Source: a virus. Taken from it: a stretch of 57,813 nt of DNA. Numbering within the stretch: the first letter of the stretch is position 1; each line of letters begins with the position of its first letter. The notes under the pieces were generated by a model. That model was not told the origin of the DNA and searched no databases. It was given only the letters and a program-made list of their open reading frames with translations. The position numbers and the translations under genes are program-made. Positions 1,252 through 50,543 of the stretch are shown piece by piece. The DNA lies in IMG/VR virus record IMGVR_UViG_3300029787_000046, positions 1 to 57,813 of that record; one strand, 5' to 3'.

Positions 1252-2571
1252 TTATAGTTGGGTATGGTAACCTTGTTGTGTATAGTCATAGCGTTCTTCG
1301 AGTAGCGTCGAAAGCCTCGGTAAACCAAAGAACTGTAGGTTTTTATTGCAATCGATAATTAGCTGAATATTCTGTTCTGGGTGACCTTTTTCAAGAAAAT
1401 GCGTTGGTTGAGTTACAATGTCTACATATTCTTGCGCTACGTTCCGCATATCAAACTTATTTAACAACCCTAGATTATTGTGTCGCATTGTTTCCCACTG
1501 TTCCTTATTAGTTAGCCCCTCATTTACTATATCCCCAAACTCTTCGGGTGTAGCTGTATGGGGTATCTCTATGTAGTTTTGCCCAGACTTAAATATCTGG
1601 CTGTTTTTCATACCCAAATCTGTAGCCATTGGTACAGCACCTTTGATCATAGCCTCTACCGTTGTACGATTAAAATGTGCGCCATAGTCAGAATACTTTT
1701 TAGAAAAGCTAGGGTCTATCTGTAGCTTAGTTTCACCAAGCAATCGCAATACTTCTTCATTAGGTACAACACCATGATAACTCATACCTGTATTGAGGGC
1801 GATTGCCCATATACGGTTACCCTGTGCATCAAAATACTTTGGTTTGCATTTATCTTTACTTGTCATATACCTGTATTCAATCCCTGCCCCACCGACTACA
1901 ACAGTCTCTTTTATAAACGGTACAGCACGAACCAAAGTATCCACTCGTTTCCACGCTTTAAATATTTGGATTGCCAATGCACCACTACGTTGATCAAAAT
2001 CATAACCAAAATCCCCATGTATTTTAAATGGGTTTAAGATTAACTTGCGTGGAATATCTAAATATTGTGCCGAGTTATAGGCACTTTCATGAACGCATAC
2101 AGCGGCATGAAAATATTCTGAAACAGAGATAAGGTGTGGATACAACTTAGGTAAATTGCCATCATGTATGATAGCAATGTTTTTGCTACCATGATCATAC
2201 AGATCTAGCCAAGCTTTGATTTCTGTGTTATCTTTATTAAGAGTAGGTACAGGTATATGCCAAAGAACGGCATCGTATTTACTACACTTTTCTTTAAATA
2301 GCTCTCGTGCCTGTTTGCTCACATAAGGTATCTTGGGTATACCCTTCCACCCTCGTGCTTGGTGAAACTTATACCCTGTCCCACCTTCTAAAGATTTATA
2401 ATCTCCATCCCTACCGCGGATTGGTGATCTATTAGAAACAGCACTTTTAGGAACGAGCATACAAAAGTCTACTTCATGCCCTAACTCTTTTAAGCCTTTA
2501 GCCAAATACTCAGCATGGTTAATTATGCCACCATAATCTTGTATTTGGAATAGTGTCATTAAGAACTTCAT
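1252..2571 (-). CDS. GT-B glycosyltransferase (GT4-like)
   Basis: This 439-residue protein has the two-lobed look of a GT-B glycosyltransferase. The N-terminal lobe has DYGGIINHAEYLAKGL (12-27, acceptor side) followed by Rossmann-type strands. The C-terminal lobe has FNRTTVEAMIKGAVPMATD (about 318-336), the usual nucleotide-sugar-binding Glu-rich helix region. Its ATG overlaps the stop of the ADDT-like gene as ATGA, so the two are probably translated together. Located between that gene and a thymidylate-synthase homologue, it is a candidate DNA glycosyltransferase acting on 5-hydroxymethyl-pyrimidine. A role in sugar transfer to host surface polymers is the main alternative. The family assignment is firm; the acceptor is inference. 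Confidence 0.8.
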   Translation of the reverse strand: MKFLMTLFQIQDYGGIINHAEYLAKGLKELGHEVDFCMLVPKSAVSNRSPIRGRDGDYKSLEGGTGYKFHQARGWKGIPKIPYVSKQARELFKEKCSKYDAVLWHIPVPTLNKDNTEIKAWLDLYDHGSKNIAIIHDGNLPKLYPHLISVSEYFHAAVCVHESAYNSAQYLDIPRKLILNPFKIHGDFGYDFDQRSGALAIQIFKAWKRVDTLVRAVPFIKETVVVGGAGIEYRYMTSKDKCKPKYFDAQGNRIWAIALNTGMSYHGVVPNEEVLRLLGETKLQIDPSFSKKYSDYGAHFNRTTVEAMIKGAVPMATDLGMKNSQIFKSGQNYIEIPHTATPEEFGDIVNEGLTNKEQWETMRHNNLGLLNKFDMRNVAQEYVDIVTQPTHFLEKGHPEQNIQLIIDCNKNLQFFGLPRLSTLLEERYDYTQQGYHTQL

Positions 2572-3479
2572 TCTACAGTCCCTTTCTTAAAGTTATCGTT
2601 TGATAATATATTGGCGTTATATCTACTCCTAGGCGTACCTTGTCCCAAACGCACACGTTCGTATTTATCCCACTCACATAAGCTATGCTCTATAGTACGC
2701 ATATCTACACGAGCTACAGGCACATGAGGTTTACAATGCTTAGGAGCTTCAGCTAATAACAGTTGCATTTCAGTATTTGCTACTTGTTGATTCATGCCTT
2801 TTTTAAGGTCACGCAAATGTATACGGTTTAATCCTCGCTTGGCTCCAGGACCTGCGTTAGCCCACGAGAATTGATCTTTCGCGGCTTCCAACACAGGTGT
2901 GTAGTTGAGATCCGTAACCACCTCGTACGACATAAAACCTCCCCCTCCCCACCCTTTATAGGAACCCATCGCTTGGTGGAGCTCTTGGAGGGATAAAGAT
3001 TCATTGGCAATCTTGGAAAGTGCCTCCTTTTTCTCCCAAATGGGCGCAAGAAAATAGTCAACTACGACCTCCGATTTTGGTGCTTTTAACCCTTGATTTG
3101 TGATTATATACGCACCAGTAAAAGTTCGTAAACCTTTTGACAACCGATCTTCAATCAATTGTTTAGTTTTAGTTTTATCCCACCCATCATCTTCGTACAC
3201 CCACTTGTGAGCATCGGCAAACTCACTTGTGCCGATCATACGAAATAAGCAACAGTTAAAAATAATTTCACCATGTGGACGGTTGTGGTTTGGTTTAGTC
3301 CAGTTCTCACGCATCCACACAGTTACTTTATCATTTTCACGAAAAGGGTTTGTAAACTTGTAGTCTTGAAGAATTCTATCTTCTGTCCACGGTGGTATTT
3401 CGTCGGCTACCCTACGTTGGTAAATAGAATGTCTTTCATTTATCCAACCAAAGTATCTTTCTACAGCTTCGGTGTCCAT
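2568..3479 (-). CDS. ADDT / 5-hmdU-kinase helical-domain family protein (formerly aGPT-PPlase)
   Basis: This 303-residue protein carries the signature of the alpha-helical family first described as alpha-glutamyl/putrescinyl-thymine pyrophosphorylases. Members were later linked to 5-hydroxymethyl-dU kinases and amino-acid:DNA transferases that hypermodify thymine in phage DNA. Visible landmarks are YFGWINERHSIYQRR (9-23), PWTEDRILQDYKFTNPFREN (30-49), an EIIFNCCLFRMIG helix (71-83), GGGGFMSYEVVTDLNYTP (178-195) and the glycosylase-like NAGPGAKRGLNRI (208-220). No P-loop kinase domain is fused to it, unlike the full-length kinases. It lies between a glycosyltransferase (4-base overlap) and an unknown gene (3-base gap). 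It should act on the DNA itself; which reaction it performs cannot be read from the sequence. Confidence 0.75.
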   Translation of the reverse strand: MDTEAVERYFGWINERHSIYQRRVADEIPPWTEDRILQDYKFTNPFRENDKVTVWMRENWTKPNHNRPHGEIIFNCCLFRMIGTSEFADAHKWVYEDDGWDKTKTKQLIEDRLSKGLRTFTGAYIITNQGLKAPKSEVVVDYFLAPIWEKKEALSKIANESLSLQELHQAMGSYKGWGGGGFMSYEVVTDLNYTPVLEAAKDQFSWANAGPGAKRGLNRIHLRDLKKGMNQQVANTEMQLLLAEAPKHCKPHVPVARVDMRTIEHSLCEWDKYERVRLGQGTPRSRYNANILSNDNFKKGTVE

Positions 3480-5596: not shown

Positions 5597-7114
5597 TCAG
5601 TAGGGCAACGCATATCCTTGACTATACATAGGATGTATCAAATGTATATTATTTATGGCTCTGGTAAGTCCAACATAAAATACTCTTGTTTCATCTTCTT
5701 CATAGGTATGTATTTTACGCCACATTGAGTATGGTCGTTTCATTGTATCAGTTAATAGCATTACGTTAGTTGCTTGAGCACCTTTAGCTGAATGAATAGT
5801 AGAGATTCGTAGTCGAGGTGTTTCGGTCAAACTTTCACCTTTTCGTAAACAAGCTTTTATATACGTCTTATCTCTTTGATTTATTTTGCCTAGCCCGATA
5901 TCCCATGGATGGTTGTGCAACAAACCGTGATTGTTTTGTAACTCTTGCAAACTGTAGAAAGAACCTTCCTCACCATCGGGCATAGTTTTGCAGCCATACT
6001 TTACTTGACTGTTTAGCATCATGTGTTTGTACACGAGCAAGACTTGTTCTTTACTGAGCTTGTTGCCTTCTCGTAAATATTCCCATAATCTGACTGCTTC
6101 TAAAACCTTACTGTCAATACTTTTAGATCCATTGTAGATATATAAATGTCCTCGCCTTCTTACTTCTTCCTCTATTTGTTGAGCTCCTCGGGTAGTTCTA
6201 CTTAGTAGTAACCAGTCACCTTCTGATAAACTCACCTCTTCAGAATGGCGATGCCAAGTTATATTACCTTCTTCTTGTCTTGGTTCAAACTCTTTTTCCC
6301 TGCGTCCCACTATTGTTTTGATTACATTGTGGCTGAGTGTATGGTGCGAAGAAGGAATACGATAACTTTTATTTAGTAATGTCACATCACCTTCAAGACC
6401 TACAAAGTAATTTACATCTGCTCCTGCCCAACGGTAAATAGCTTGGTCATCATCCCCTGCTACATAACATATCTTGCTTTTTTGTTCTAACTGTCTTACC
6501 ATTTCCCACTGCAAAGGTGACAGGTCTTGGGCTTCATCTATAAATACTACTTCTAATTTAGGGCAAAGGTCACGCTCTACAAAAGCCTCTAACATTCCGG
6601 TATAATCATATAGCCCATAAGAGTTTTTCCAATGCTCTATACCTCTGTTTACATAATCAACCCTAGCCCAATCTGTTTTCAATGGTACGATACTGTCATT
6701 GTAAATCTTGCGTAACGGTTGGCGTAGTATACGAGCAATATTAATAATTTCAAGGAATTTGTCACCATAGCCAAAGTCTTTGTATGGTCCTTGTTCTACA
6801 TTACCTCCTCCATAAAACTTTCCTATCTTTAACCAATCAGCTATTTCTTGGTACTTATCTGGTGTAATCACTTGTGAATGGGTCAAACCTGCTTGCAAAA
6901 AAGCTAGACTATGTAGAGTTCTAAAGTAAGGTAACTCTTTTTTAGATATATTAAACTTGGTACAAGCTCTTTCTATAGCTTCCTGTGCTGCTCTTCTTGT
7001 AAAAGCAAAGTACCCTATACGGTCTGGCGGTACACCAGAGGCAAGGTATTGTTCAACTAAGTTAAGAAGTTTAGTTGTCTTGCCTGTTCCTGGAGGTCCG
7101 AGCACGATGTGCAT
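5597..7114 (-). CDS. UvrD/Rep-type superfamily 1 DNA helicase
   Basis: This 505-residue SF1A helicase is shorter than cellular UvrD. Motif I is LGPPGTGKTTK (5-15), followed by the Q-like YFAFTRRAAQEA, motif II VVFIDEAQDLSPLQW (about 189-203), motif III AGDDDQAIYRWAGAD, motif V ISTIHSAKGAQATNVMLL and motif VI ETRVFYVGLTRAI near the C-terminus. All ATPase motifs are present, so it should be an active 3'-5' translocase that unwinds DNA ahead of the phage polymerase or during recombination. It overlaps the primase gene as TAATG (7114), so primase and helicase are made together. Confidence 0.9.
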   Translation of the reverse strand: MHIVLGPPGTGKTTKLLNLVEQYLASGVPPDRIGYFAFTRRAAQEAIERACTKFNISKKELPYFRTLHSLAFLQAGLTHSQVITPDKYQEIADWLKIGKFYGGGNVEQGPYKDFGYGDKFLEIINIARILRQPLRKIYNDSIVPLKTDWARVDYVNRGIEHWKNSYGLYDYTGMLEAFVERDLCPKLEVVFIDEAQDLSPLQWEMVRQLEQKSKICYVAGDDDQAIYRWAGADVNYFVGLEGDVTLLNKSYRIPSSHHTLSHNVIKTIVGRREKEFEPRQEEGNITWHRHSEEVSLSEGDWLLLSRTTRGAQQIEEEVRRRGHLYIYNGSKSIDSKVLEAVRLWEYLREGNKLSKEQVLLVYKHMMLNSQVKYGCKTMPDGEEGSFYSLQELQNNHGLLHNHPWDIGLGKINQRDKTYIKACLRKGESLTETPRLRISTIHSAKGAQATNVMLLTDTMKRPYSMWRKIHTYEEDETRVFYVGLTRAINNIHLIHPMYSQGYALPY

Positions 7115-8637
7115 TATATTATATCATTTTCAACAGGTAGTTGAGGCAAGGCCATTTCTGAGTCATCTGTTTCAAAATAGTTTTGTGGCAGTGACCAAAC
7201 ATGGATACCTTTCCCCCTTACTCTCCAAAACATTTTTTCTGCTTGTAAGTCCTGTAATCTTAAAGTTATTTTGTTAGAAGTATAGTGGTTAAAATCGTTT
7301 ACAGATAAATGTTTCTTTAAATCTTTTATTTGAAAGTATACCCTTGTTTCTGCCCAGACCGCAACACCTTGCAGAATATCTTCACGCTCTTCACCTTTAG
7401 CTCTTTCCGCAGCGAAAGCATGAAGTAAATCTTCAAACTCACCTTTGAACGTAGCATCAGGCGGTACTTCCACAATAGTCAAATTATCTAACAACAGTTG
7501 TATGCGTGTCTGCCATGCACGTTGATTAACTATAACAGGGAACTTATTTATTTGTGACACACACTCTTTTTGAAACTGTGCTTGACTGGTTAAACCATTG
7601 GTACTAAGCTCTAATCGTTCGCCATCTACATTAAGAATCCAGATAGGGGGGTCACCGTCAATTTTAGTAAGGCTAGACATATCATTGCCTATGCCACTTG
7701 GTCCTACGCCATGCTTCCTTGTTTTACATAACTCTTTATCACAAAAAGGTTTTATGGGTTGGTCTTCACATTTATAAAAGTAATCTTTCTTTTTTAATTG
7801 TCTGATTGTATTGCCTACCTCACCATGACTTAGCGGTGGGCTGAGGTAATCCACATTGTAGCGTTGGACTAACTGCTCCCAATTATCTTCATCAAACATT
7901 CTGGCATATACACCAAGATTAAATAGAGCATTGTTTCGAGAACCCTCGCCAAATCCTTTACTGCATAAGTGCTGTAAACAAGGTGGTCCTTCTTCTAATA
8001 CTCCCTCTTTTGTACCAAACCCCATATTAAGTTTACGAAACTGATTTGGAGTTATAATATAATCTTTACAGTATTCTATAAACTCTTCTGGCGTTAGTGT
8101 TTCTGCATTTTGGTCAAACGCATACCGAGTAGATTTAGATCCACTGAAGTAAGGCATATTAAGAAAGTTGCCCGTATCGCCCCTATCTAGCAATATTGTT
8201 GTTTGTTTTGGGAATATTTCACTCCCTGCAAAACCAAGAGCTGCACTTAGCTCGGTTAATCTGCGCTGCATATCTTCAGCTTCTACAGGCTCACTTAAAA
8301 ATATCCATACATGAGCTCCACCGCTTTTAGTCCTGCCCACTACAGCAGGGATTTTATTTTTAGCTAATGTTTTGATTAAATCTTTATGACTAACACTGTA
8401 TTCATCAATATCTATCGCACCCCAATGGCAAGTATTATCACTTTTAATTGGTATGATTCCAAGACCTGTGCCACCTTTTAAATGGTCTTCCCACATAGCT
8501 ATCGTTGTAGGTTCACGAATAACTTTTGCTGTGCCTTGTTTCTTTCCGTCTGTTTCTCTATTACTCTTTACAACATATGTGCCATGAGCAATATCGCTGC
8601 CTTTAAATAAATCGTAAAAATCTTGTGCAAGTGACAT
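7114..8637 (-). CDS. Archaeo-eukaryotic-type (AEP) DNA primase
   Basis: This 507-residue primase-polymerase has an N-terminal catalytic domain. It shows CHWGAIDIDEY (70-80, metal-binding Asp75 and Asp77), VVGRTKSGGAHVWIFLSEPV (99-118, the conserved S-x-H-like strand) and a downstream YFSGSKSTRYA segment. Beyond it are cysteine-rich stretches, GPPCLQHLCSKGFGEGSRNNAL (about 219-240) and KPFCDKELCKTRKHG, that resemble PriCT/PriL-type metal centres. The last 150 residues look like a winged-helix end. Such AEP primases replace DnaG-type enzymes in many marine phages. With the downstream SF1 helicase it would prime synthesis for the phage PolA. Confidence 0.85.
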   Translation of the reverse strand: MSLAQDFYDLFKGSDIAHGTYVVKSNRETDGKKQGTAKVIREPTTIAMWEDHLKGGTGLGIIPIKSDNTCHWGAIDIDEYSVSHKDLIKTLAKNKIPAVVGRTKSGGAHVWIFLSEPVEAEDMQRRLTELSAALGFAGSEIFPKQTTILLDRGDTGNFLNMPYFSGSKSTRYAFDQNAETLTPEEFIEYCKDYIITPNQFRKLNMGFGTKEGVLEEGPPCLQHLCSKGFGEGSRNNALFNLGVYARMFDEDNWEQLVQRYNVDYLSPPLSHGEVGNTIRQLKKKDYFYKCEDQPIKPFCDKELCKTRKHGVGPSGIGNDMSSLTKIDGDPPIWILNVDGERLELSTNGLTSQAQFQKECVSQINKFPVIVNQRAWQTRIQLLLDNLTIVEVPPDATFKGEFEDLLHAFAAERAKGEEREDILQGVAVWAETRVYFQIKDLKKHLSVNDFNHYTSNKITLRLQDLQAEKMFWRVRGKGIHVWSLPQNYFETDDSEMALPQLPVENDII

Positions 8638-9578: not shown

Positions 9579-10139
9579 TTACCCTTTCTTTGGAGTAGTA
9601 ATTTTTGCTTTTTCTCCGATGTAACCACCGAACAGTTCATCTGGTATCGAAATACCGTTTTCAGTAGACTCTTTGTACCAAGCCTTTAATGACATAGGTT
9701 CTACCCATTTCCTACTATTGACGGGCATACCTCTTTCTGTCAATTCTTCTGCAAACTTATTTGCTTGTTCTTCTTGTCCGCGAACAAAGTTTGTAGCTAC
9801 TTGGTTCTTTATAAGGTCACCGAAGCCATTGTCCAGTAACCATGTAAACGATTCGTCTGCTTTATCTTTTGGTATAGAAGCACTGTAGAATTTGCTTATT
9901 TTAATTTCTGAGCCATCTTCCAAACCAATTTTAGTCATATTATATTCAGCCATCGCAGCAGGTAATTGTTCCTCTGCTACTTCTTTTAAACTTCTTTTAG
10001 TTTCTTTCACCTCCTCTTCTAAAGCTTTCACACGCTCTTCCAATGTTAATTGCAAACGAGCAAGCTTACTTACTCTACTCATGCCATCTTCATTTATTGC
10101 ACTGAACTGTTCTGCGACAGATTCAAAGTCGCTACTCAT
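9579..10139 (-). CDS. Coiled-coil protein of the replication block, unknown function
   Basis: This 186-residue protein has an N-terminal coiled coil (about residues 25-60, LTLEERVKALEEEVKETKRS) followed by a globular part with NKFAEELTERGMPVNSRKWV and SLKAWYKES. Its ATG overlaps the stop of the upstream gene as ATGA, and only three bases separate it from the SSB-like gene. It may partner the SSB-like protein in replication or recombination. I do not recognise the family by name. Confidence 0.6.
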   Translation of the reverse strand: MSSDFESVAEQFSAINEDGMSRVSKLARLQLTLEERVKALEEEVKETKRSLKEVAEEQLPAAMAEYNMTKIGLEDGSEIKISKFYSASIPKDKADESFTWLLDNGFGDLIKNQVATNFVRGQEEQANKFAEELTERGMPVNSRKWVEPMSLKAWYKESTENGISIPDELFGGYIGEKAKITTPKKG

Positions 10140-10462
10140 TTGTCACCTCCTGGTCTATAATTTAGGTCTGCGGTTAAGGGAAAATACTTTCCATCTTGCC
10201 TATCCCATTTTAACATTTTGAATTTACCCCTGTTTGCTCTTGCTGCGAGGCAAGCACATAACGCAATAACAACAGGGTCTCCTGCTAAAATAAGGTAGTC
10301 CTCATCAGAAAACTTACTGAGCTTTCTGTTAATTTGTCTAATAATAGGTTGTGTAGAATAACTTGCTTGCTCTCCTGCAGGTACAAGTATTTCTACATCA
10401 CCGAAGCTAGTGGCATCTGTAATGTCACGGCCTCGCATTTCTTGGGTAATATAAACTGTCAT
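10136..10462 (-). CDS. First gene of the early unit, conserved phage protein of unknown function
   Basis: I place the start at the ATG at 10462 because GGAG lies six bases before it; an in-frame GTG four codons upstream lacks a ribosome-binding site. The 108 residues (MTVYITQEMRGRDITDATSF...) include a C-terminal basic segment, RANRGKFKMLKWDRQDGKY. Similar proteins precede SSB-like genes in other phages, but their role is unknown to me. Its position as the first gene behind promoter module A suggests early, high expression. Confidence 0.65.
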   Translation of the reverse strand: MTVYITQEMRGRDITDATSFGDVEILVPAGEQASYSTQPIIRQINRKLSKFSDEDYLILAGDPVVIALCACLAARANRGKFKMLKWDRQDGKYFPLTADLNYRPGGDK

Positions 10463-10621
10463 GTCTTTCTCCACATGGGTATATTTTACTTTACTTTATA
10501 TAGTGTAAAAACAAAAGCAGTAACTTATCCTTTACTATCTCCACTATCTTGTAGGGGTTTTTACTTTTACTAATAGGCACTAAAATTAAAGGAATGACCA
10601 ATAAAATAAAGTCCAATTTAA

Positions 10622-10637
10622 TCGCGCGGACACGAAA
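10622..10637. repeat. 16-bp shared leader motif, copy in module A
   Basis: TCGCGCGGACACGAAA occurs here and, identically, at 49961-49976. On the minus strand it lies about 25-40 bases downstream of the module A -10 box, so it would be in the 5' leader of the early mRNA. It is GC-rich in an AT-rich setting, which supports selection rather than chance. Confidence 0.8.
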
Positions 10638-10660
10638 CTTGAAGATATTGTATATCGTAT

Positions 10661-10688
10661 ATTATAAAATGTTAAAAACGTAAAACAA
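10661..10688 (-). promoter_or_regulatory. Promoter module A (early unit)
   Basis: Minus-strand promoter with -35 TTGTTT (10683-10688), 16-base spacer and perfect -10 TATAAT (10661-10666). The surrounding sequence, from GATAGGA upstream of the -35 to ATACAATATC downstream of the -10, is shared with module B at 50067-50094 with the same spacing. It would drive the replication unit from 10462 leftward. Confidence 0.75.
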
Positions 10689-10790
10689 TCCTATCGGTCT
10701 TTTACCTCTATAAAACAAACCAGATAAAATAACGGTTGTCTACTATATAGCGGTATAATAGAATTAACGTACCCAATAGAAAGAGGGCAA

Positions 10791-12230
10791 ATGCGATACA
10801 AGTTTAAATTCAAGCCGTACGAGCACCAACTCGAAGCGTTAGAAAAATCTTGGACTAAAGAGTATTATGCTCTTTTTATGGATATGGGTACAGGTAAATC
10901 TAAAGTTCTTATAGATAATATTGCTATGCTGTATGACAAAGGCGAAATAGATTCTGCATTGATTATTGCACCAAAAGGTGTGTATAGAAACTGGGAACGT
11001 AAAGAGCTACCAACCCATTTGCCCGATCATGTAAAAGCGAACATTGTTACATGGTCACCTGAAAAAACAAAAAAGAAACAAGAAGAATTAAACACGTTAA
11101 ATAAAATAACGGATGACCTACAAATATTCCTTATGAATGTAGAGGCGTTGTCAACTAAACGTGGGGTTGAGGTTGCTGATAAGTTTTTACTCTGCCATAG
11201 GGCAATGCTTGCTGTAGATGAAAGCACTACTATAAAATCACGAACAGCGAATCGTACAAAGAGTATAATAAAACTTGGCAAAAACGCGCCTTATCGTAGG
11301 ATTCTTACAGGGTCTCCTGTAACTAAATCACCACTTGATTTATACACACAATGTGATTTTTTAGAAAACAATGTATTAGGACATACCTCTTTTTGGACAT
11401 TTCAAAACCGTTATGCTAAAATGGTACGGAAAAATATGGGAGCTCATTCTTTCAACCAAATTGTAGGATATCAAAACCTAAGTGAACTAAATGAATTAAT
11501 AGAAGAATTTAGTTTTAGAGTACGCAAAGAAGACTGTTTAGACTTACCTGACAAAGTATATACTAAACGGTCAGTAGAGTTAACACCTGAGCAACGTAAA
11601 TTATACGACCAATTAAAACGAAATGCACTCGCGATTATTGAAAACGAAGGCATGGTTTCTGCCTCTACTATCTTAACTCAACTATTAAGGTTGCAACAAG
11701 TTTGCTCTGGTTTTGCAAAGCTAGAAGATGGGCGAATGATCAAAGTTCCAAGTAACAAGCTAACTGAGCTTATGTCTGTATTAGAAGAAACAGATGGTAA
11801 AGTAATTATATGGGGAAACTTTACCCATGACCTTGAAATTATAGGCGAAGCTCTTGCCAAGCAGTATGGTGCTGAATCTGTAGAATTGTTTTATGGTGGA
11901 ACTCCAGGAGAAGAAAGGCAGTTAATTGTTGAAAGGTTTCAAGATAAAGACGATCCTCTGAGGTTTTTCGTTGGGCAACCACGCACAGGTGGCTACGGTC
12001 TGACTCTGACAGAAGCAAAAACAGTGATCTATTACAGCAATGGATACGATTTAGAAGTTAGATTGCAAAGTGAAGATAGAGCTCATCGCATAGGTCAAGT
12101 AAACAAAGTTACCTATATTGATATTATTGCAGATAAAACAAGTGATGAAAAAATACTTAGAGCGTTGCGTAATAAAATAGACATTAGCTCACAAGTATTA
12201 GCTGAAGGTTACAAAGATTGGATAATATAA
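10791..12230 (+). CDS. SNF2-family DEAD-like helicase/translocase
   Basis: This 479-residue SF2 protein is a minimal SNF2-type motor. Motif I is MDMGTGKSKVL (30-40), followed by Ia-like ALIIAPKGVYRNWERK, motif II AVDEST (a DEST variant of DEAH), motif III ILTGSP, motif V TGGYGLTLTEA and motif VI LQSEDRAHRIGQ. It lacks extra domains, so it probably translocates on double-stranded DNA to remodel protein-DNA complexes, recombination intermediates or replication forks. It is the only gene on the plus strand, diverging from the early unit and ending one base before the convergent small gene at 12231. Independent control is likely. Confidence 0.9.
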   Translation: MRYKFKFKPYEHQLEALEKSWTKEYYALFMDMGTGKSKVLIDNIAMLYDKGEIDSALIIAPKGVYRNWERKELPTHLPDHVKANIVTWSPEKTKKKQEELNTLNKITDDLQIFLMNVEALSTKRGVEVADKFLLCHRAMLAVDESTTIKSRTANRTKSIIKLGKNAPYRRILTGSPVTKSPLDLYTQCDFLENNVLGHTSFWTFQNRYAKMVRKNMGAHSFNQIVGYQNLSELNELIEEFSFRVRKEDCLDLPDKVYTKRSVELTPEQRKLYDQLKRNALAIIENEGMVSASTILTQLLRLQQVCSGFAKLEDGRMIKVPSNKLTELMSVLEETDGKVIIWGNFTHDLEIIGEALAKQYGAESVELFYGGTPGEERQLIVERFQDKDDPLRFFVGQPRTGGYGLTLTEAKTVIYYSNGYDLEVRLQSEDRAHRIGQVNKVTYIDIIADKTSDEKILRALRNKIDISSQVLAEGYKDWII

Positions 12231-25328: not shown

Positions 25329-28310
25329 TTATCCCTCTAGGGTTACCACTCTTGCAGTAAGTGCTTCTATTAGTGCGTTCTGTTCTTGAATAGCTTTGAC
25401 TAGAATTGGTACTAACTTAGCGTACCTCATTCCGTACTGTTTACCATCGCCACTTACACTTACAGTTAAATTTGTTTTATCTGCAATTTTATAATTAGAA
25501 GCTTCTTCTAATGTTTTAACATCTTGTGCTTTAAAACCTAAATCTAACCAATCTTCTTTATGAGTTCCATCAGAAGTTATGGCATCTAAATCATAATCAT
25601 CTGCTGTCTTATCTCCATATTTAGAACGCTTATCCCACTTAAAGGTGTACGGTTTCATAGCTTTTACAAAGTCTAAACCTAAGTCTAATGTAGTAAAATC
25701 TGTCTTATCTCGTTCATCAGAAGCTGCCGTTATATCTACTTGAGCATTAAAAGTAGTAATGTTTTCATCACCTATATATATTTCGTTTGAACCAGTTGTG
25801 ACATTACCTCCAGGACTTCCAGTAAGACCTGCATCATGACCTATGACTGTATTGTTATGACCAGAAGTTATTGCTCTTCCTGTTAAAAAACCCATCGCAG
25901 TGTTATCATATCCAGTACAAGCTGTGAGAGCTTGAACACCAACAGCAGTATTTGTACCACCACTATCTGCTGAACCCAAAGCAAGTCTTCCAACAGCAGT
26001 ATTATCACTACTATCTAATGTTTCTGCTCCTGCATTAAAACCAATAAGTGTGTTATTAATTCCTGTTGTAATTTTTGTACCTGCAAATGTACCAACTGCG
26101 GTGTTGAAACTAGTTGTATCAGTAGAAAAGTTTTGTGCTTTAAGTGCTGAAGCTCCTATTGCAACTGATTTATCACCTCTTGTATCAGCGGTTAAAGCGT
26201 CATTACCTATTGCAACATTCATTTCACCGTCAGTAATACTTGCTCCTGCATTACTACCTACTATAGTGGTTTTGACTGCTGTAGTAATTGCCATTCCTGC
26301 ATTGTTACCAACAGCAGTATTGTGAGAATCTGTTGCAGTAGTGAAGTTTTGTGCTTTTAATGCCTGTCTGCCTACTGCTGTAGAATGACTTCCTAATGTA
26401 TCTGCACTTAATGCTTCATAACCTAAAGCGAGGTTGTTCCCACCTGTTGTTAAATGATCACCTGACAGACCACCAATTACAGTATTATTTACACCTGTTG
26501 TAATACGTCTACCTGCTAAAGCTCCTACAGCAGTATTATAGGCATCTGTAGCCGTAGTAAAATTTTGTTCGTTTAAAGTTAAAGATCCAAGTGCTGTATT
26601 ATAACTACCTAATGTATCTGCACTTAATGCTGCTTTTCCGACTGCTACATTAAACTCTGAAGTAGTAAGTGCATCTCCTACTTCTGCACCGATGAGGGTG
26701 TTGTTTGTACCTGTTGTAACTGATTGACCTGCATCATATCCTACGGCTACATTAAAGGACTCCGTAGTAGTAGCATAATTTTGATTTTGTAATGTTTGAT
26801 AACCTATTGCAACTGATTTTCTACCTACGTCATCACTAGATAAAGAAGCATATCCCATAGCTACATTACGGTCACCTGTTGTTAAAGCATCTCCTGATGT
26901 TCCACCAATAAGAGTATTTCTTGTACCTGTAGTAACTGATAAACCTGCTTGATGACCAACAGCTACGTTGTATGAATCTGTAGCCGTTGTAAAGTTTTGT
27001 GTAGCTAAAGCTTGATACCCTAATGCAGTGGAATTAGAACCTAGTGTATCAGCACTTAAAGCATTCACACCTAATGCTGTATTATAATCGGCATCTGTAA
27101 GAGCGTCTCCTGCTAGTCCACCAATAAGGGTATTTTGAAGGCCTGTTGTTATTGATCCACCTGCATTGTAACCTAGTCCTACGTTGTAAGAAGTAGTAGC
27201 AGTAGTAAAATTTTGATTAGCTAAAGCACTGTAACCTATAGCAACAGTTCTGCTTCCAAGTGTGTCATCTGTTAATGCTCCTCTACCAATTGCTACGTTC
27301 CTATCAGCATCAGTTAAAGCATCTCCTGCTGTACCACCAATTATTACATTGTCAACTCCAGTTGTTATATTTTGTGCAGTATTATATCCAACTGCTACAT
27401 TGTAAGAATCAGTTGCAGTAGTAAAATTTTGAGTTGTTAATGCGTTTCTTCCTATAGCAATAGATTTACTACCTAGAGTGTCAGTAGTAAGAGCATTGTA
27501 TCCTACAGCTACATTATGGTCAGCATCCGTAAGTGCATCACCTGCAAGCGCACCTATCAAGGTGTTTTGTACACCTGTGGTAACTGATGTACCTGCATCA
27601 ACACCTACTGCTGTATTATAAGATTCTGCTCCTGCATTAAGAGTTTTCAATGCTCTATAACCAATAGCTACGTTGTTTCCATTGGCATCTTCTGTTGATA
27701 AAGCTTCAAACCCAACAGCAACATTATTATCACCTGTAGTCAAAGCAGTACCTGCTTCATCACCCAAGACCACATTGTAGTTGCCGCCAGAGGTTATTGC
27801 ATCCCCTGCATTAATGCCAAGACGTAAATTAGATGTACCTGCTGTACTTGTAGATAAACTGGGGACAGAAATATTAGTAAGCGCCTCTACAACAGCAGCT
27901 CCAGATCCTGCACCATCTAAATAAACAACCTTAACTGTACCATTAGGGATTGTTACATTAGCACCAGAACCTTGACTAATAATTATGTTATAAGGACCAG
28001 AACTCCCACTATCTGTAGTAGCATTCTCAATAAAGTGTACTCTTGATAAAGTGTTGGGAGCAATAGTAATTGTACAATCAGAGTCTAACGCTCCTGTATA
28101 CTTAATGTACATTGAACGAGCAGGATCTGTTGCCCCATCTGCAACCGTAGAAGTATGCGTGTCTGCATTTGTTGTGATCGCTTCAGTTCCAAAACTGAAA
28201 CCTTCAGCAATTAACTCTAAGTTCGTGTTAGTTGTATCTCCCCACGTTCCTGACTGTTCGCCTGACCCAATTTCTTCTAATCGTAAATCATTTGTATATA
28301 CACTTGCCAT
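25329..28310 (-). CDS. Tail fibre/spike with 72-residue repeats and C-terminal S74 chaperone
   Basis: In this 993-residue protein, residues 1-195 form the virion-attachment region starting MASVYTNDLRLEEIGSGEQS. Residues about 196-830 consist of eight full repeats of 70-72 residues plus a partial ninth. Each repeat carries four N-x-A-x-G coils (NVAVGYNAL, KSIAIGRNAL, YNVAVGYNT, NTLIGG), like the left-handed parallel roll of YadA-type adhesin heads. From Ser864 (SDERDKTDFTTLDLGLDFVK) to the end is a peptidase S74 intramolecular chaperone, expected to trimerise the fibre and cut itself off at that serine. Its product should be the host-recognising spike. The next gene downstream is a 2OG-Fe(II) oxygenase. 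Confidence 0.88.
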   Translation of the reverse strand: MASVYTNDLRLEEIGSGEQSGTWGDTTNTNLELIAEGFSFGTEAITTNADTHTSTVADGATDPARSMYIKYTGALDSDCTITIAPNTLSRVHFIENATTDSGSSGPYNIIISQGSGANVTIPNGTVKVVYLDGAGSGAAVVEALTNISVPSLSTSTAGTSNLRLGINAGDAITSGGNYNVVLGDEAGTALTTGDNNVAVGFEALSTEDANGNNVAIGYRALKTLNAGAESYNTAVGVDAGTSVTTGVQNTLIGALAGDALTDADHNVAVGYNALTTDTLGSKSIAIGRNALTTQNFTTATDSYNVAVGYNTAQNITTGVDNVIIGGTAGDALTDADRNVAIGRGALTDDTLGSRTVAIGYSALANQNFTTATTSYNVGLGYNAGGSITTGLQNTLIGGLAGDALTDADYNTALGVNALSADTLGSNSTALGYQALATQNFTTATDSYNVAVGHQAGLSVTTGTRNTLIGGTSGDALTTGDRNVAMGYASLSSDDVGRKSVAIGYQTLQNQNYATTTESFNVAVGYDAGQSVTTGTNNTLIGAEVGDALTTSEFNVAVGKAALSADTLGSYNTALGSLTLNEQNFTTATDAYNTAVGALAGRRITTGVNNTVIGGLSGDHLTTGGNNLALGYEALSADTLGSHSTAVGRQALKAQNFTTATDSHNTAVGNNAGMAITTAVKTTIVGSNAGASITDGEMNVAIGNDALTADTRGDKSVAIGASALKAQNFSTDTTSFNTAVGTFAGTKITTGINNTLIGFNAGAETLDSSDNTAVGRLALGSADSGGTNTAVGVQALTACTGYDNTAMGFLTGRAITSGHNNTVIGHDAGLTGSPGGNVTTGSNEIYIGDENITTFNAQVDITAASDERDKTDFTTLDLGLDFVKAMKPYTFKWDKRSKYGDKTADDYDLDAITSDGTHKEDWLDLGFKAQDVKTLEEASNYKIADKTNLTVSVSGDGKQYGMRYAKLVPILVKAIQEQNALIEALTARVVTLEG
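25914..27725. repeat. Tandem 216-bp repeats in the tail fibre gene
   Basis: The coding sequence for residues 196-790 or so repeats with a 216-bp period (72 codons), about eight and a half times. The copies have diverged at the DNA level but keep phrases such as the one encoding QNFTTATDSYNVAVG. Such arrays can shorten or lengthen by recombination. Boundaries are approximate. Confidence 0.75.
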
Positions 28311-44931: not shown

Positions 44932-46412
44932 TAATAATATTTCCTTATTCTAGGAGCAGTATCTTCTTCCTCATAATCTTCAGGATGCTGAATGAAACCG
45001 CCCTCTCTAAATCTACGTAACGCTTGCGTAACCGTATCAACATAATCATCATGCTCTCCTGCAGGAAAAGCAGCACACTCTTCAACAACTTCCTCTGCCC
45101 ATCGAGTATCTGGAACCCATACTAACCCACTTTCAAGTAATGGTGCAACTGAATTTACTCGAGTGAATTTATCATTTCCTCTACTCGGGCTATAATTCTG
45201 CACTGGAATACCCATAGCTCGCAACTCCTGCGTTAACGGCATACCCGAAGCTTTTGCCTCTATCAATACACATTCAGGATCCCAATACTTATATTCCTCC
45301 AACGCTCGCCTACGCAAATCAGGAAAATCCCATCGTCCACGCTGTGCATCTACAAGAACAATGTTTGGTGGTCCTCCCTCCGTAGGGTAAAATACACCCC
45401 ATGTAGTTATCGCACTATAATCAGCAGTAGTCTGTTTACTATACGCAGTATCATAACTCTGCATAACATACTCCAAAGGAGGTAACTCTTTTTTCTCCCA
45501 ACGCTGCCACCAATCACGTTTTAATATAGCAGATTGTTCACTCGTCGGGTTTTGCTGCCACTGAGCTTCCCACTTACCCACAGACAAACTGCCCTTAACC
45601 GAAAGTAAATCTTCCTTTTTCCAATACTCACCCCACAACGGCTCATTCGTATCTGGCATCAAAGCAGGAAACTCTACAACCTCCCACTTATCAGCTAAAA
45701 CATCTCGCCCCTGCTGCTTTAATAACTTACCTGTTAAATCATTTTCTGCCCATCGGGTCATAATTATCACAATAGACCCTCCTGGTTGAAGCCTCTGCCG
45801 TGGTCCTGACGTATACCACTCATAAGCGTGTTCCATCGCCGTAGGGCTTAAAGCATCTTGTTCACTATGGGGGTCATCAATAATTAATAAATCAGCACCA
45901 CGTCCCGTAACCGCACCACCAACTCCCGCAGCAAAATATTCACCACCCTTTGAAGTTTCCCAACGTCCTGCTGCCTGACTATCTGCTCGCAACTCTACAT
46001 CAAATATCTTTTTATAAGCCTCTGAGTTCATTAAATTACGAGTCTTACGACCAAATCTAAACGCTAACTCAGCAGTGTGCGTAGTCTGCATAATCTTTAA
46101 CGTAGGGCGTCGTCCCATCAACCACGCAGGTAATAAATAACTTCCGAATTCAGATTTCGTGTGCCGAGGTGGCATATTCACAATTAATCGTTTTAACTCT
46201 CCACAAGCCAAACGGTTAAACTTCTCTGCCATTATTTTATGGTGGCGTCCATTTATAAAATCTTCCCACACAGCCTTAGTAAAAGCCATAAAATCATCAC
46301 GGGCTAACTCTGATTCATTAATCTCCTTAGCTCGATCCAATAAAGTCGCAAACTTCTTCAAATGCTCTTCTGGCACATTGGTTAGATCAAAGCTCATATT
46401 TTCAAAATACAT
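44931..46412 (-). CDS. terL: Large terminase subunit (TerL)
   Basis: This 493-residue protein has an N-terminal ATPase: VNMPPRHTKSEFG (78-90, Walker A of the PPRHTKS type), ADLLIIDDPHSE (173-184, Walker B), IVIIMTRWAENDLTG (214-228, coupling motif). The C-terminal RNase-H-like nuclease has acidic residues in QSYDTAYSK (Asp321), CVLIEAKASG (Glu385) and HDDYVDTVTQAL (about 454-465). Both active sites appear intact, so it should package and cut DNA. The first ATG is taken; an internal ATG five codons on (MSFDLTN) is the alternative. Confidence 0.93.
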   Translation of the reverse strand: MYFENMSFDLTNVPEEHLKKFATLLDRAKEINESELARDDFMAFTKAVWEDFINGRHHKIMAEKFNRLACGELKRLIVNMPPRHTKSEFGSYLLPAWLMGRRPTLKIMQTTHTAELAFRFGRKTRNLMNSEAYKKIFDVELRADSQAAGRWETSKGGEYFAAGVGGAVTGRGADLLIIDDPHSEQDALSPTAMEHAYEWYTSGPRQRLQPGGSIVIIMTRWAENDLTGKLLKQQGRDVLADKWEVVEFPALMPDTNEPLWGEYWKKEDLLSVKGSLSVGKWEAQWQQNPTSEQSAILKRDWWQRWEKKELPPLEYVMQSYDTAYSKQTTADYSAITTWGVFYPTEGGPPNIVLVDAQRGRWDFPDLRRRALEEYKYWDPECVLIEAKASGMPLTQELRAMGIPVQNYSPSRGNDKFTRVNSVAPLLESGLVWVPDTRWAEEVVEECAAFPAGEHDDYVDTVTQALRRFREGGFIQHPEDYEEEDTAPRIRKYY

Positions 46413-46582
46413 CGAAAAATTTCAAAGGGCAATGAACCTATAATCAATATACACAATAGGGGGGTGCATGATCTCGGCTTTTGATCGAGTAAAGTTCACT
46501 ATCCATGAAAAATGTTTTTGGATCTCGAAGAAATATCTAAAACTTGGTTACACCTGACGGCATAACCAAAGGTCGTCTCACA

Positions 46583-46606
46583 GGGGGGTGGTGGGGGGTG
46601 GGGGGG
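46583..46606 (+). other. G-quadruplex-capable tract
   Basis: Three runs of six, six and seven guanines separated by TGGT and T (GGGGGGTGGTGGGGGG, then TGGGGGGG) lie on the plus strand between the hairpin and terL. Runs this long could supply four G-tracts of three. The transcribed (minus-sense) RNA would be C-rich. Confidence 0.65.
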
Positions 46607-46625
46607 TCAATGGTGACCAGTGATT

Positions 46626-46651
46626 GGCTAGGGGGACCCATCCCCCTAGCC
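46626..46651 (-). terminator. Perfect 10-bp hairpin after the 46659 gene
   Basis: GGCTAGGGGG (46626-46635) pairs with CCCCCTAGCC (46642-46651) around ACCCAT, seven bases past the gene stop on the minus strand. There is no U run after it. It may still pause or protect the transcript. Confidence 0.55.
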
Positions 46652-46658
46652 GTTGTTA

Positions 46659-47081
46659 TTAAGCTTTGGCTTGTGGCTCAACTACCAATTTAACGTAGCC
46701 AGTACCATAAACTGAACTGCTTGGAGTATAACCACCGTTTAACATTGCCAATAAACAAATAGGTGATTTAGTGCTGTGACCCAAAGGCTTGGCAGCATTA
46801 AGAATTGAAAACAAGCTGTGACTACCGTCAACACCTTTCAACAACCAATCTTGAATTGTAGCGCGGACACCGCCAGTTTTACCAGTGTATCCAAATGGTA
46901 CGGGCTGATCAGAATCTAACTTAACATTGTCAAGTGGAACAACCTGAACATTATGTATATTGCCACCTGCTTCAGCGTTAACGAACGCCCAGATGTCAGA
47001 GTAGTTAAGAGGAGAACCAGTATTTTGTAGCGTTGCTACTGCGACTGATTGAGTTGCGGTTTTTGTTTTTGCTTGTGCCAT
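46659..47081 (-). CDS. Unknown protein, paralogue 1 of a tandem pair
   Basis: I place the start at 47081 (MAQAKTKTATQ) because TAGAAAGGG lies just before it. The 140 residues share their whole length with the next gene: both have a YxDIWxFVxxxAGGN helix, VVPLDNVKLDSDQPVPFGYT / VPLDNVDLKSDAPVPFGYGG, GGVR.xIQDWxLxGVDG, PLGHS.K.P and GGYxPSS. I do not recognise the family. It is separated from the second copy by a terminator and leader, so each is expressed on its own. The short, rigid fold with a conserved VDG...GHS pattern suggests a small binding protein. Confidence 0.75.
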   Translation of the reverse strand: MAQAKTKTATQSVAVATLQNTGSPLNYSDIWAFVNAEAGGNIHNVQVVPLDNVKLDSDQPVPFGYTGKTGGVRATIQDWLLKGVDGSHSLFSILNAAKPLGHSTKSPICLLAMLNGGYTPSSSVYGTGYVKLVVEPQAKA

Positions 47082-47180
47082 TTTATAACCCTTTCTACGG
47101 TTTATGACTGTAACCATTATTGGCTACATATTCTTTCTACTATAGTTCACTATTATTGTAAACCCCTTTTGTGAACTTTT

Positions 47181-47249
47181 TTACATTTTATTTAAACTAA
47201 TAATGCTGACTATTATTATGACAGCAACTATCAAGATTGACATATTCAT
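47181..47249 (-). CDS. 22-residue hydrophobic micro-ORF
   Basis: The ORF MNMSILIVAVIIIVSIISLN ends KM and is a single membrane-length segment. AAGGA precedes it; the second in-frame ATG (47243) is better spaced. It follows a promoter with a perfect TTGACA. Peptides of this kind include small phage lysis proteins and type I toxins. There is no proof it is translated. Confidence 0.45.
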   Translation of the reverse strand: MNMSILIVAVIIIVSIISLNKM

Positions 47250-47266
47250 TCCTTATTGTTATTAAC

Positions 47267-47296
47267 ATTAACAAATGTAACCCAGTGAAATGTCAA
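47267..47296 (-). promoter_or_regulatory. Promoter with consensus TTGACA
   Basis: -35 TTGACA (47291-47296), 18-base spacer, -10 GTTAAT (47267-47272, four of six matches), on the minus strand. It lies 18 bases before the first ATG of the micro-ORF and could also drive paralogue 1. Confidence 0.5.
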
Positions 47297-47310
47297 ACAG
47301 TATTTTGTTT

Positions 47311-47344
47311 AATCTTTTTTTGTGGGGGAAAATCCTCAAGAATC
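47311..47344. repeat. Leader box, copy 1
   Basis: This roughly 34-base segment (AATCTTTTTTT, then GGGG and AAAATCCTCAAGAATC) is repeated at 48116-48150 with a few changes. Each copy lies 200-230 bases upstream of one paralogue, so gene and leader were probably duplicated together. Confidence 0.75.
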
Positions 47345-47469
47345 TTCAAACGATGATTAATGATGAGTACTTGAGGAAGATTGATTAATATATATACTCA
47401 TATATATATGTCGTCTTTCATCCTCAGGAAAGGGATCATTATCTTTCTTCCTCGGGAAAGGGAAGGGAG

Positions 47470-47490
47470 AAAAAGGGGACCGAAGTCCCC
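47470..47490 (-). terminator. Rho-independent terminator with UUCG loop after paralogue 2
   Basis: On the minus strand, GGGGAC-TTCG-GTCCCC is followed by TTTTTCTCCC. The UUCG tetraloop and the U run make it a textbook terminator. It lies six bases past the stop of paralogue 2, isolating it from paralogue 1. Confidence 0.88.
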
Positions 47491-47496
47491 TGATCC

Positions 47497-47922
47497 TTAA
47501 GCTTGAACTACGAGCTTGACATATGGTGTCATCCAGTATTTACTAGACGGTGAGTATCCACCATGCAAGAGCGCGTGTAGACAAACAGGCTTTTTGCGAC
47601 TGTGTCCTAATGGAGCGGCTTTAGTGAGAACCGCTTTAAGTGTGAGATCGCCATCAACACCGCGTAGCATCCAGTCTTGTATTTTCTGGCGTACACCCCC
47701 GGAACGTCCACCGTAACCAAATGGCACAGGCGCGTCAGACTTGAGGTCAACATTGTCAAGAGGTACGATTTTCACGTTTGCCTCATTGCCACCTGCCTTA
47801 GTCTGGACAAAATTCCAGATGTCATCGTAAGTAAGCTCTTGGTCAGTGACCATTAACTCAACGGATTTTACCACCTTTTTAGTGGCAGATTTAGGGGAAG
47901 TCTTTTTAGCTGTATTAGCCAT
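47497..47922 (-). CDS. Unknown protein, paralogue 2 of a tandem pair
   Basis: This 141-residue protein, Lys/Ser-rich at the first 20 residues, then shows the same domain as paralogue 1 (TYDDIWNFVQTKAGGNEANV, IVPLDNVDLKSDAPVPFGYG, GGVRQKIQDWMLRGVDG). It is preceded by GTAGAAAGGAGCTAATC and followed by its own terminator. The N-terminal tails of the two copies differ most, and the cores are clearly homologous. The function is unknown. Its place between the two terminase genes may link it to packaging or its control, but this is inference. Confidence 0.75.
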   Translation of the reverse strand: MANTAKKTSPKSATKKVVKSVELMVTDQELTYDDIWNFVQTKAGGNEANVKIVPLDNVDLKSDAPVPFGYGGRSGGVRQKIQDWMLRGVDGDLTLKAVLTKAAPLGHSRKKPVCLHALLHGGYSPSSKYWMTPYVKLVVQA

Positions 47923-48685: not shown

Positions 48686-48885
48686 TAGTCTACGAGCTCC
48701 CCTGTTATAATAAAATCCATACGCTCAGCGCATTTGGGACAAGGTGTTTTATCCTCGTCGTAATAGTCTGCGGCATAATTGTTGCCGAGCAACGGCATCC
48801 CACATAATGTCCTGCTTGTGCCATCAGCCATTGAGAAATGCTGTTGTCCTAACTTTTTAGTCCACTCATAAAATTTAGTAGCCAT
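48685..48885 (-). CDS. Small zinc-binding protein
   Basis: In this 66-residue protein, TPCPKCAERMD near the C-terminus gives one cysteine pair, and Cys28 in TLCGMPLLGNN with a His could complete a zinc site. It is coupled to the nuclease gene by a shared base, so the two may act together. Confidence 0.6.
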   Translation of the reverse strand: MATKFYEWTKKLGQQHFSMADGTSRTLCGMPLLGNNYAADYYDEDKTPCPKCAERMDFIITGELVD

Positions 48886-49315: not shown

Positions 49316-49870
49316 TCAGGTGGTGTCTTTTGTTATCTTTTTTTGTGCCGTACCCTCGATGACCATATTACCATCAGCTACTGCTGCGAGTGCAGGGAAC
49401 TCTTTTTGCAAACGCTCTATTTCTTTCATAACTTGTTCTCTATCCATTTGATCAATACGTCCATGAAGGATTTCTTTACGATCTATGTAGATCCCTGCCG
49501 CTTGTCCTCTAGATTTTTCGGCTGCGACTGCCGCTGCAAAGTTTCCTCCAGTAAGGGCAGCATCACGTATCTCGGCTAGTTTTTTAACGTGTCCTTCAAA
49601 ACTTACCTCGTACTTTTTAGATAGCTCACTCTTTAGTTCGCCTATCCTTTGCACAACTTGAGGATATCTTTGCCCATTGAGTAATTGTGATGCAATGGCG
49701 TGGGCAGATTTTACAGAATATCCTGCTCTTACAGCAGCCTCAGTTTGGCTAACATCTTCGCAAACGTAGATTCTACAAAACTCCTCTTGTTTCGGAGTGA
49801 TTCCTTTCTCTACACGAGGATTAGCGACGACATTGATACTGGGTTTGTGAGTGGCTTTTGCAAGAGGCAT
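49316..49870 (-). CDS. terS: Small terminase subunit (TerS)
   Basis: This 184-residue protein is of the Terminase_2 type: GITPKQEEFCRIYVCEDVSQ (23-42), TEAAVRAGYSVKSAHAIASQ (HTH-like DNA-binding helices, 43-62), LLNGQRYPQVVQRIGELKSE, a central coiled helix and a C-terminal IEGTAQKKITKDTT tail. It should recognise the packaging site and hand DNA to TerL. It is the first gene of the late unit behind promoter module B. It is unusually far (about 3 kb) from terL. Confidence 0.88.
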   Translation of the reverse strand: MPLAKATHKPSINVVANPRVEKGITPKQEEFCRIYVCEDVSQTEAAVRAGYSVKSAHAIASQLLNGQRYPQVVQRIGELKSELSKKYEVSFEGHVKKLAEIRDAALTGGNFAAAVAAEKSRGQAAGIYIDRKEILHGRIDQMDREQVMKEIERLQKEFPALAAVADGNMVIEGTAQKKITKDTT

Positions 49871-49960
49871 TTTACTTTTCCTTCTCGTTATGATGGGACC
49901 ACTTTACTTAATAGGAGGGAAAAAGAAAAGTAGCCATTTTAAAACAGCCCTGATTTAAAG

Positions 49961-49976
49961 TCGCGCGGACACGAAA
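49961..49976. repeat. 16-bp shared leader motif, copy in module B
   Basis: TCGCGCGGACACGAAA is identical to 10622-10637. Here it lies about 90 bases downstream of the module B -10, still in the leader of the transcript. Some similarity continues beyond it (a TTTAAAT segment and a TTTTA/TGG segment). Confidence 0.8.
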
Positions 49977-50066
49977 GTAATGATCTATTGTGATCAAGAT
50001 ATCGGAGTCAGAGAGCCATAATCCATGCTAACCTATTGAATATATGGGGATAGTGAGATATTGTAT

Positions 50067-50094
50067 ATTATCAAATCTTTAAAAACAAAAACAG
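50067..50094 (-). promoter_or_regulatory. Promoter module B (late unit)
   Basis: Minus-strand promoter with -35 CTGTTT (50089-50094), 16-base spacer and -10 GATAAT (50067-50072), flanked by the same GATAGGAxTG and ATACAATATC sequences as module A. The -10 and -35 boxes are each one base weaker than in module A. Confidence 0.72.
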
Positions 50095-50140
50095 TCCTAT
50101 CCATAATTCACCCCTATATAGCAAAGTCCATATAATATAC

Positions 50141-50177
50141 AAAAAGACCCCCTGACCAGAAAGGTGGAATCAGGGGG
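50141..50177 (-). terminator. Rho-independent terminator of the early unit
   Basis: CCCCCTGA (50148-50155) pairs with TCAGGGGG (50170-50177); an inner CCA/TGG pair extends it. On the minus strand it is followed by TCTTTTT (50141-50147). It lies 40 bases after the last early gene and separates the early and late units. Confidence 0.9.
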
Positions 50178-50216: not shown

Positions 50217-50543
50217 TTATTTACGATACCAAGAATAAATTTTTGACACAAGTCTTTTCCAAAAAGTTTTTTCTTTCTGGCGTTCGTATTCCCAAACGTC
50301 GGCACTTGCCCCTGATGCAGAAAGCACAGTCACGGCTTCCGATTGAGCAGATTTAGTTGATCTAAAATTAGCACTCTTTGTATTTAACTTTTTGCCGAGC
50401 GTATACACGATATACTTATACTGACTAGGTGTAAGTCCATGAAAAGATTGTATTTGTTTAGCAGTCAATCCTTTTTCTTTATCCGTAAGAATTCTTGCTA
50501 CAAACGCATCACTTGGGCGTGTCCTATCAGTTTGCTTGCTCAT
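50217..50543 (-). CDS. Last early gene, HTH-like small protein
   Basis: This 108-residue protein has ARILTDKEKGLTAKQIQSFH, followed by GLTPSQYKYIVYTLGKKL (about 16-53), which reads like a helix-turn-helix. A Ser/Ala linker leads to a basic, Trp-rich tail (KTFWKRLVSKIYSWYRK). It may regulate the promoter just downstream, module B; this is inference from location. It overlaps the 50527 gene by 17 bases. Confidence 0.6.
   Translation of the reverse strand: MSKQTDRTRPSDAFVARILTDKEKGLTAKQIQSFHGLTPSQYKYIVYTLGKKLNTKSANFRSTKSAQSEAVTVLSASGASADVWEYERQKEKTFWKRLVSKIYSWYRK

Follow-up and report, generated by a model that had tools for sequence, protein, structure and literature searches.

What does a 16-nucleotide sequence do that stands, in identical form, ahead of two separate operons of one phage genome, and what acts on it? 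The window, by which we mean the whole stretch of DNA that was analysed (57,813 nucleotides, positions 1-57,813 of IMG/VR record IMGVR_UViG_3300029787_000046), comes from a marine phage. We find that both copies of the 16-mer sit inside a larger module of fixed geometry, which is present twice per genome and whose motif changes in concert within genomes. As to its function, we give an even chance to the reading that it is a duplicated DNA control module with a promoter (P2) at its downstream element M, the 16-mer being bound by a trans-acting, lineage-specific factor that serves both copies.

Two modules in one genome

A sequence-only reading of this DNA had reported twin regions with an identical 16-mer, and this is borne out. 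The 16-mer, which reads TTTCGTGTCCGCGCGA on the transcribed minus strand, is exact at both sites (Table 1), without a further copy at up to three mismatches in the 57.8 kb; shuffled sequences contained a mean of 0.07 copies at this stringency, and two copies in 0/100 shuffles. The hexamer CGCGCG has no window copy outside the two 16-mers, but as an order-2 model expects only about one, its rarity by itself proves little.

On the transcribed strand, both modules consist of M' (an inverted copy of M), 43/44 nt, an AT box, a variable middle, the 16-mer, 43/45 nt and M (CCTATTATGYAAAGT). The flanks GATAGGAxTG noted earlier lie at 10686-10695 and 50092-50101, and the shared downstream boxes, (A/G)ATATACAATATCT, at 10643-10656 and 50056-50069. 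The shared region is thus real but larger than had been described, in that it also contains M and M'. The common promoter proposed for it fared less well: its -10 box, TATAAT/GATAAT, is present in this genome, but relatives have TCCGAT, CCAATA, AAAATA and similar sequences in its place, and we dropped it as a sigma70 -10. A different pair in module A, P1, holds its position in several A relatives.

The contig ends carry a 144-nt repeat (1-144 and 57670-57813, 99% identical), which may reflect either a circular map, then of about 57,669 bp, or a terminal repeat. On the circle, module A precedes the replication operon, which codes for gp32-, gp33- and gp34-like proteins, a primase and a helicase, and module B precedes the gene for the terminase small subunit, terS. 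From A to B it is 18.3 kb along the direction of transcription and 39.3 kb the other way. The replication operon crosses the contig ends and stops at the terminator-like hairpin 50177-50141, with module B directly after it. The earlier description of the two regions as heads of the early and late units therefore holds for the replication operon and terS, but intrinsic-terminator-like sites at 47491-47474 and 46570-46543, between B and the large terminase gene (terL), make it probable that B is not the sole driver of the late region. The terS-terL interval (46380-49330) holds several small genes with promoter-like and terminator-like sites of their own, two of which (46659-47117 and 47497-47922) resemble paralogues by eye.

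Table 1. Positions of the module elements and of neighbouring features in the window.
Feature	Position	Strand	Sequence or support
AEP-type primase gene	7114-8637		
First gene behind module A, Pam3 gp32-like	10136..10474	-	PF23992
Module A, element M, proposed P2 -10 and start region	10563..10577	-	CCTATTAGTAAAAGT
Module A, 16-mer, proposed factor site	10622..10637	-	TTTCGTGTCCGCGCGA; about -74 to -59 of P2
Module A, AT box	10643..10656	-	GATATACAATATCT; 43-44 nt from M' in 12/12 genomes
Module A, P1 candidate, overlaps AT box	10647..10675	-	TTAACA-17-TACAAT; 10 of 12
Module A, element M', inverted copy of M	10705..10721	+	CCTCTATAAAACAAACC on +
Promoter-like site of divergent helicase gene	10736..10764	+	TTGTCT-17-TAGAAT; 9 of 12
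Divergent SF2 helicase gene, pointing away from A	10791..12230	+	
terS, behind module B	49316..49870	-	phrog_51, E 3.5e-17
Module B, element M, proposed P2 -10 and start region of terS	49901..49915	-	CCTATTAAGTAAAGT
Module B, 16-mer	49961..49976	-	
Module B, IHF-like core, absent from A	50029..50041	-	ATTCAATAGGTTA; one mismatch to WATCAANNNNTTR
Module B, AT box	50056..50069	-	AATATACAATATCT
Module B, P1 candidate	50060..50088	-	TTGTTT-17-TACAAT; by eye; weaker, not best-scoring pair
Module B, element M'	50113..50127	+	CCTATATAGCAAAGT
Terminator-like hairpin with T run, directly before module B	50141..50177	-	seen in sequence; absent from terminator scan
Gene of small HTH-like protein directly upstream of module B, weak factor candidate	50217..50543	-	

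The module in related phages

Scanning related phages for the 16-mer, as had been proposed, yielded 21 exact stretches among viral contigs. Of these, 18 share the context seen in the window; the other three (L006, L011, L014) are GC-rich and without a module, as chance would give. Protein searches added 80 terS loci, five of which were left out for too little upstream DNA, and 25 loci of the gp33-like gene, from which three (L126-L128) without a module were left out of set A. After identical sequences were merged, 20 A and 54 B sequences remained, two of the latter (L100 and L103) with the other motif described below. About 11 effective lineages stand behind each set, and since the sequences are related, the counts below are not independent events.

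The aligned upstream regions of both sets share one order, M' (ACTTTGCTATATAGG), AT box (CGATATACAATATC), a variable stretch, the 16-mer and M. In module A, M' reads CTCTATATAGCAAA in close relatives and CCTATATAGCAAAGT in more distant ones. The deep core of the 16-mer is CGCGCGR, and its left half varies. From the end of this core to M we counted 43-45 nt in 20/20 A and 52/52 CGCGCG-bearing B sequences. A scan of viral contigs that allowed 30-60 nt returned a distance of 44 or 45 in 36/37 stretches, the odd one being an unrelated contig, and scans in which M' and M alone were specified recovered 22 modules (3 A-type, 19 B-type), all 22 of which carry CGCGCGR at 44-45 nt. Across lineages, identity within this spacer is only 43-45%; that its length is conserved and its sequence is not suggests proteins bound to DNA. 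Likewise, M' and the AT box are 43-44 nt apart in both modules of 12/12 genomes. The distance from the AT box to CGCGCG floats (34-47 in A, 90-111 in B), so that the 16-mer is held in place relative to the downstream M, not to the upstream box.

Concerted change of the paired motifs

Of 16 related records, selected from among the loci above, 13 carry the spaced pattern twice on one strand, as does the window; one has a single copy and two lack the spaced pattern. One of the 13 also has a third, palindromic match of the same CGCGCG. Comparing the A and B motifs, we found a likeness of 0.855 within and 0.626 between genomes (13 genomes, p<5e-5). Near copies of other genomes (G014 and G015, of G001 and G006), a genome with one module (G013), one with none (G012) and G017, which is like G010, did not enter this test. 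The motifs of G010 had been aligned on GGTCACA, which favours likeness, and the test was repeated without G010: the left 11 nt still gave 0.811 within and 0.532 between genomes (12 genomes, p<5e-5). No within-genome excess was seen for the AT box (p 0.87) or M' (p 0.22), and a slight one for M (p 0.011). The spacer between the 16-mer and M showed a small excess (0.46 vs 0.39, p 1e-4), for which some gene conversion may account.

In a sister clade the motif has been switched. Both modules of G010 and of G017 lack CGCGCG and read CTGGTCACA in each record, the shared match in G010 extending to CTGGTCACA-N9-CGGA in both modules. A scan for this GGTCACA type gave 14 stretches, of which 11 are modules and three (L243, L245, L247) are unrelated; all 11, A and B alike, have 48 nt to CTA, and three contigs hold both copies. 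Thus both modules have had their site replaced, with M, M' and the AT box retained. Change in concert is expected if one factor acts on both modules, and the joint alteration of the key site in relatives suggests that a single regulator controls the two. The earlier view of one regulatory cassette used twice agrees with these paired and co-varying copies.

The factor might also be supplied by the host, as a transcription factor that differs between hosts: a change of host would alter both modules at once, and no phage gene tracks the switch. We consider this highly improbable, because the finer covariation of the left halves within genomes, across many lineages, would need many host changes.

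Attractive on the window alone, and part of the earlier interpretation, was the idea that the 16-mer acts as RNA, through a boxB-like UNCG hairpin in the leader that serves antitermination or messenger stability. A UCCG loop on a 5-bp stem can form from the window 16-mer, and relatives of the TCGTG class keep the hairpin with UUCG or UACG loops. Across the 27 distinct variants, however, a stem of at least 5 bp is possible in only 12, all of the TCGTG/CTGTG class, and no hairpin of this kind is seen by eye in the GGTCACA clade. Folding of the leaders does not exceed that of shuffled sequences (z -0.09 and 0.27), an Rfam scan of the window gave no match, nor did a tRNA scan, and the distance of the 16-mer is kept to M instead of to the upstream box. 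The base before CGCGCG also varies in classes that do not fold, so the variation of the 'loop' is no sign of a tetraloop. We therefore rejected the hairpin and consider a role in RNA extremely unlikely.

A candidate promoter at element M

In the DNA-based reading that we prefer, M (CC-TATTAT-GYAAAGT) would supply the -10 and start region of P2, for which most lineages have only a weak -35. Lying 43-45 bp upstream of M, the 16-mer would then span about -74 to -59 relative to the start, a position suited to an activator. The factor bound there would most likely be a phage protein, an activator comparable to Mu Mor/C or P2 Ogr, and by serving A and B it would tie the replication operon to the terS operon. 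We infer the promoter at M, the 16-mer as a protein site and an activating, phage-coded factor from the following observations.

On average, M matches a -10 at 4.35 of 6 positions, and the best -35 match is 3.15 against 2.63 by chance. At the level of sequence, a -10 with a weak -35 and an upstream site at fixed distance is what an activator-dependent sigma70 promoter would show. Some lineages have a good -35 (TTAACA-17-TATTAT), so an activator would not be needed everywhere, and in others M is poor as a -10 (TACTTA, TAATAA, TATTTA). In module B, M' is directed at the end of the preceding operon, where one would hardly expect a promoter, and M and M' may therefore be protein sites. As a genome-wide promoter, M alone was rejected: in the window it occurs exactly only in module B, and looser matches are at chance level. 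In some relatives, module A has a promoter-like site further downstream (TTGACA-17-TATAAA in G007), and given such extra sites A may combine constitutive and regulated promoters side by side.

Module B differs from A by an IHF-like core, so called for its resemblance to the IHF consensus WATCAANNNNTTR. The pattern CAANNNNTTA was found in 48/50 B and 0/20 A sequences (shuffles 7% and 3%), at a nearly constant place in the part of B that is missing from A. A bend at this core, between the AT box and the 16-mer, may bring the two together in B and so replace the close spacing of A.

Candidates for the factor

Weak candidates are small DNA-binding proteins coded at or next to the front of module B. 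Just before B, 5/12 records code for an HTH-like protein, and 4/12 have an RHH protein at that place or one gene away; DSL-LC04, a phage discussed below, has an annotated HTH regulator near its B site. The HTH protein of the window weakly matches a repressor family (E 0.0023). Its single-sequence model (mean pLDDT 62) shows three helices, with moderate confidence, in its better part, and a Foldseek search with it returned many HTH regulators among the matches, none below E 1. The HTH protein before B in G009 matches phrog_836, late transcriptional activators (E 6e-4), and PF08765 (E 0.0046), yet phrog_836 matches occur in 2/12 records and also in 14/14 control genomes. The likeness of these HTH and RHH proteins to phage regulators is weak and unspecific, and no HTH family is common to all CGCGCG genomes.

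Such proteins could also be repressors. If the modules were operators, one phage repressor or looping protein would bind the 16-mer, perhaps together with M and M', and thereby silence the two operons or set their timing. Both the joint change of the site and the inverted M'/M pair suit a looping or repressing protein equally well, and the repressor-like match above fits it. We hold this to be unlikely, as no HTH family is found throughout the CGCGCG genomes and a position fixed at 43-45 bp upstream is more typical of activation than of repression.

Further searches for a trans factor did not single out a protein. A comparison of gene content turned up no sense-strand family that the CGCGCG genomes retain and that G010 and G017 clearly lack; the candidates either broke down in additional genomes or proved to be virion genes. 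Two small zinc-ribbon-like proteins (53324-53584 and 57326-57559) occur in all twin-module genomes examined, without a tblastn match in four outgroup phages, and neither resembles known activators; the model of the latter has a pLDDT of 64. In G010 and G017 this protein has an altered cysteine region. The recognition helix of TerS was rejected as the specificity factor, since its helix-turn-helix region is nearly invariant and TerS distances do not follow the motif (r -0.03). Finally, in a partial Mantel ranking of 30 genes against the motif, the best p was 0.006, which is not significant after 30 tests.

Replication and packaging

The genes that lead this ranking, those of the primase (r 0.55, p 0.084) and of the gp33-like protein (r 0.55, p 0.006), are what one might hope for if the modules were replication origins, with the 16-mer as the site of an initiator or primase, the AT box as the point of unwinding, an IHF-like bend and M and M' as flanking sites. 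The inverted arms enclose an AT-rich, IHF-bearing stretch, and the phage codes for an AEP-type primase; AEP prim-pols such as that of NrS-1 start at fixed template sites. But besides the lack of significance, terL comes third in the ranking, which points to plain phylogeny. The GC skew at four-fold sites has no clear switch at A or B, and M keeps a nearly constant short distance of about 22-33 nt to the terS start codon (52/52). An origin is in our judgement quite unlikely.

The place of module B directly before terS, with an IHF-like core in 48/50 relatives, would also suit a packaging site. B would then be a cos or pac site with an IHF bend, bound by TerS, and A a second copy; in DSL-LC04, CGCGCG between inverted arms stands at the same place. 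However, with a second site at a distance of 18.3 or 39.3 kb the genome would be cut into pieces, and the near-invariance of the TerS helix-turn-helix region, with its lack of correlation to the motif, makes packaging a very unlikely explanation. The same points separate the module from lambda cosB, where an IHF-like site and repeated elements lie directly before terS: here, a second full module is far away and TerS does not track the motif.

Comparison with known systems and outgroup phages

In the late promoters of P2 and P4, one phage activator (Ogr or Delta) serves several promoters from a site near -55 ahead of a poor -35. Our preferred reading resembles this arrangement in having one activator for several promoters, an upstream site and a poor -35. 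There the site consensus is TGT-N12-ACA and the activator has a zinc finger CX2CX22CX4C (PMC3931495). This site was found in 0/30 modules between 45 nt before the end of the 16-mer and M+20, one match lying elsewhere in module A of the window; no window ORF of at least 30 aa has the finger.

Mu Mor/C promoters have a -10 with a weak -35 and a small HTH activator. The modules resemble these middle and late promoters in the weak -35, but the site lies further upstream here than in Mu, and the HTH family is present in 5/12 records only. The PF08765 and phrog_836 matches of the G009 protein may hint at a Mor/C homologue, the latter being shared with all 14 control genomes. The lambda nut and HK022 put sites are likewise short elements used twice, at the heads of two operons. 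In contrast to them, the module has no conserved RNA structure, and its geometry is fixed to a downstream DNA element.

The nearest named relatives by large terminase (59-63% identity) are the Pelagibacter phages HTVC023P and HTVC027P and phages 023Pt_psg01 and DSL-LC04. All four have the same divergent helicase and early operon as the window, with no module A at the junction between them, as far as read. A CGCGCGA site is found at the position of module B in psg01 and DSL-LC04. In DSL-LC04 (L130, 20440-20960), two inverted arms, each of about 30 nt and separated by 177 nt, surround GTGCGCGCGCGA before the terS operon; the arm sequence is unlike M. As this genome is GC-richer, with about 16 CGCGCG expected and 19 found, its match alone is weak. 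From these few genomes, the B-type module looks older and A a later copy.

Implications

The proteins scanned included no RNA polymerase. It is conceivable, if somewhat doubtful, that this large group of marine phages runs its replication and packaging-head genes as one regulon, through two symmetric modules whose site has been swapped wholesale. If so, the M elements would face outward, the regulator would represent a new family, the module might be promoter and origin together, and the site would have been replaced in the sister clade at a nearly unchanged position in both copies. Such wholesale replacement would resemble swaps of phage immunity or antiterminator specificities.

The question bears on gene timing in HTVC023P-like phages that have no gene for an RNA polymerase. 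According to a transcriptome study of HTVC027P, phage transcription may be started by early genes whose function is unknown (PMC12753301); the word 'promoter' is absent from its main text. In the open-licence literature we found no paper on a pelagiphage promoter motif, nor on a conserved intergenic promoter at the terminase small subunit of marine phages. The compact cis element, its geometry, its paired copies and a natural switch of specificity are now given, so that the factor can be pulled out by binding to two natural site types.

Two further features of the window deserve mention. The early operon codes for a protein with a 5-hmdU DNA kinase helical domain (2568-3479; PF18723, E 5.8e-50) and for one that resembles thymidylate synthase (182-1228), genes that were retained in the twin-module relatives examined and had no tblastn match in the four outgroups; they suggest that this phage group may contain hypermodified thymine. 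The tail protein gene at 25329-28310 carries 216-nt repeats.
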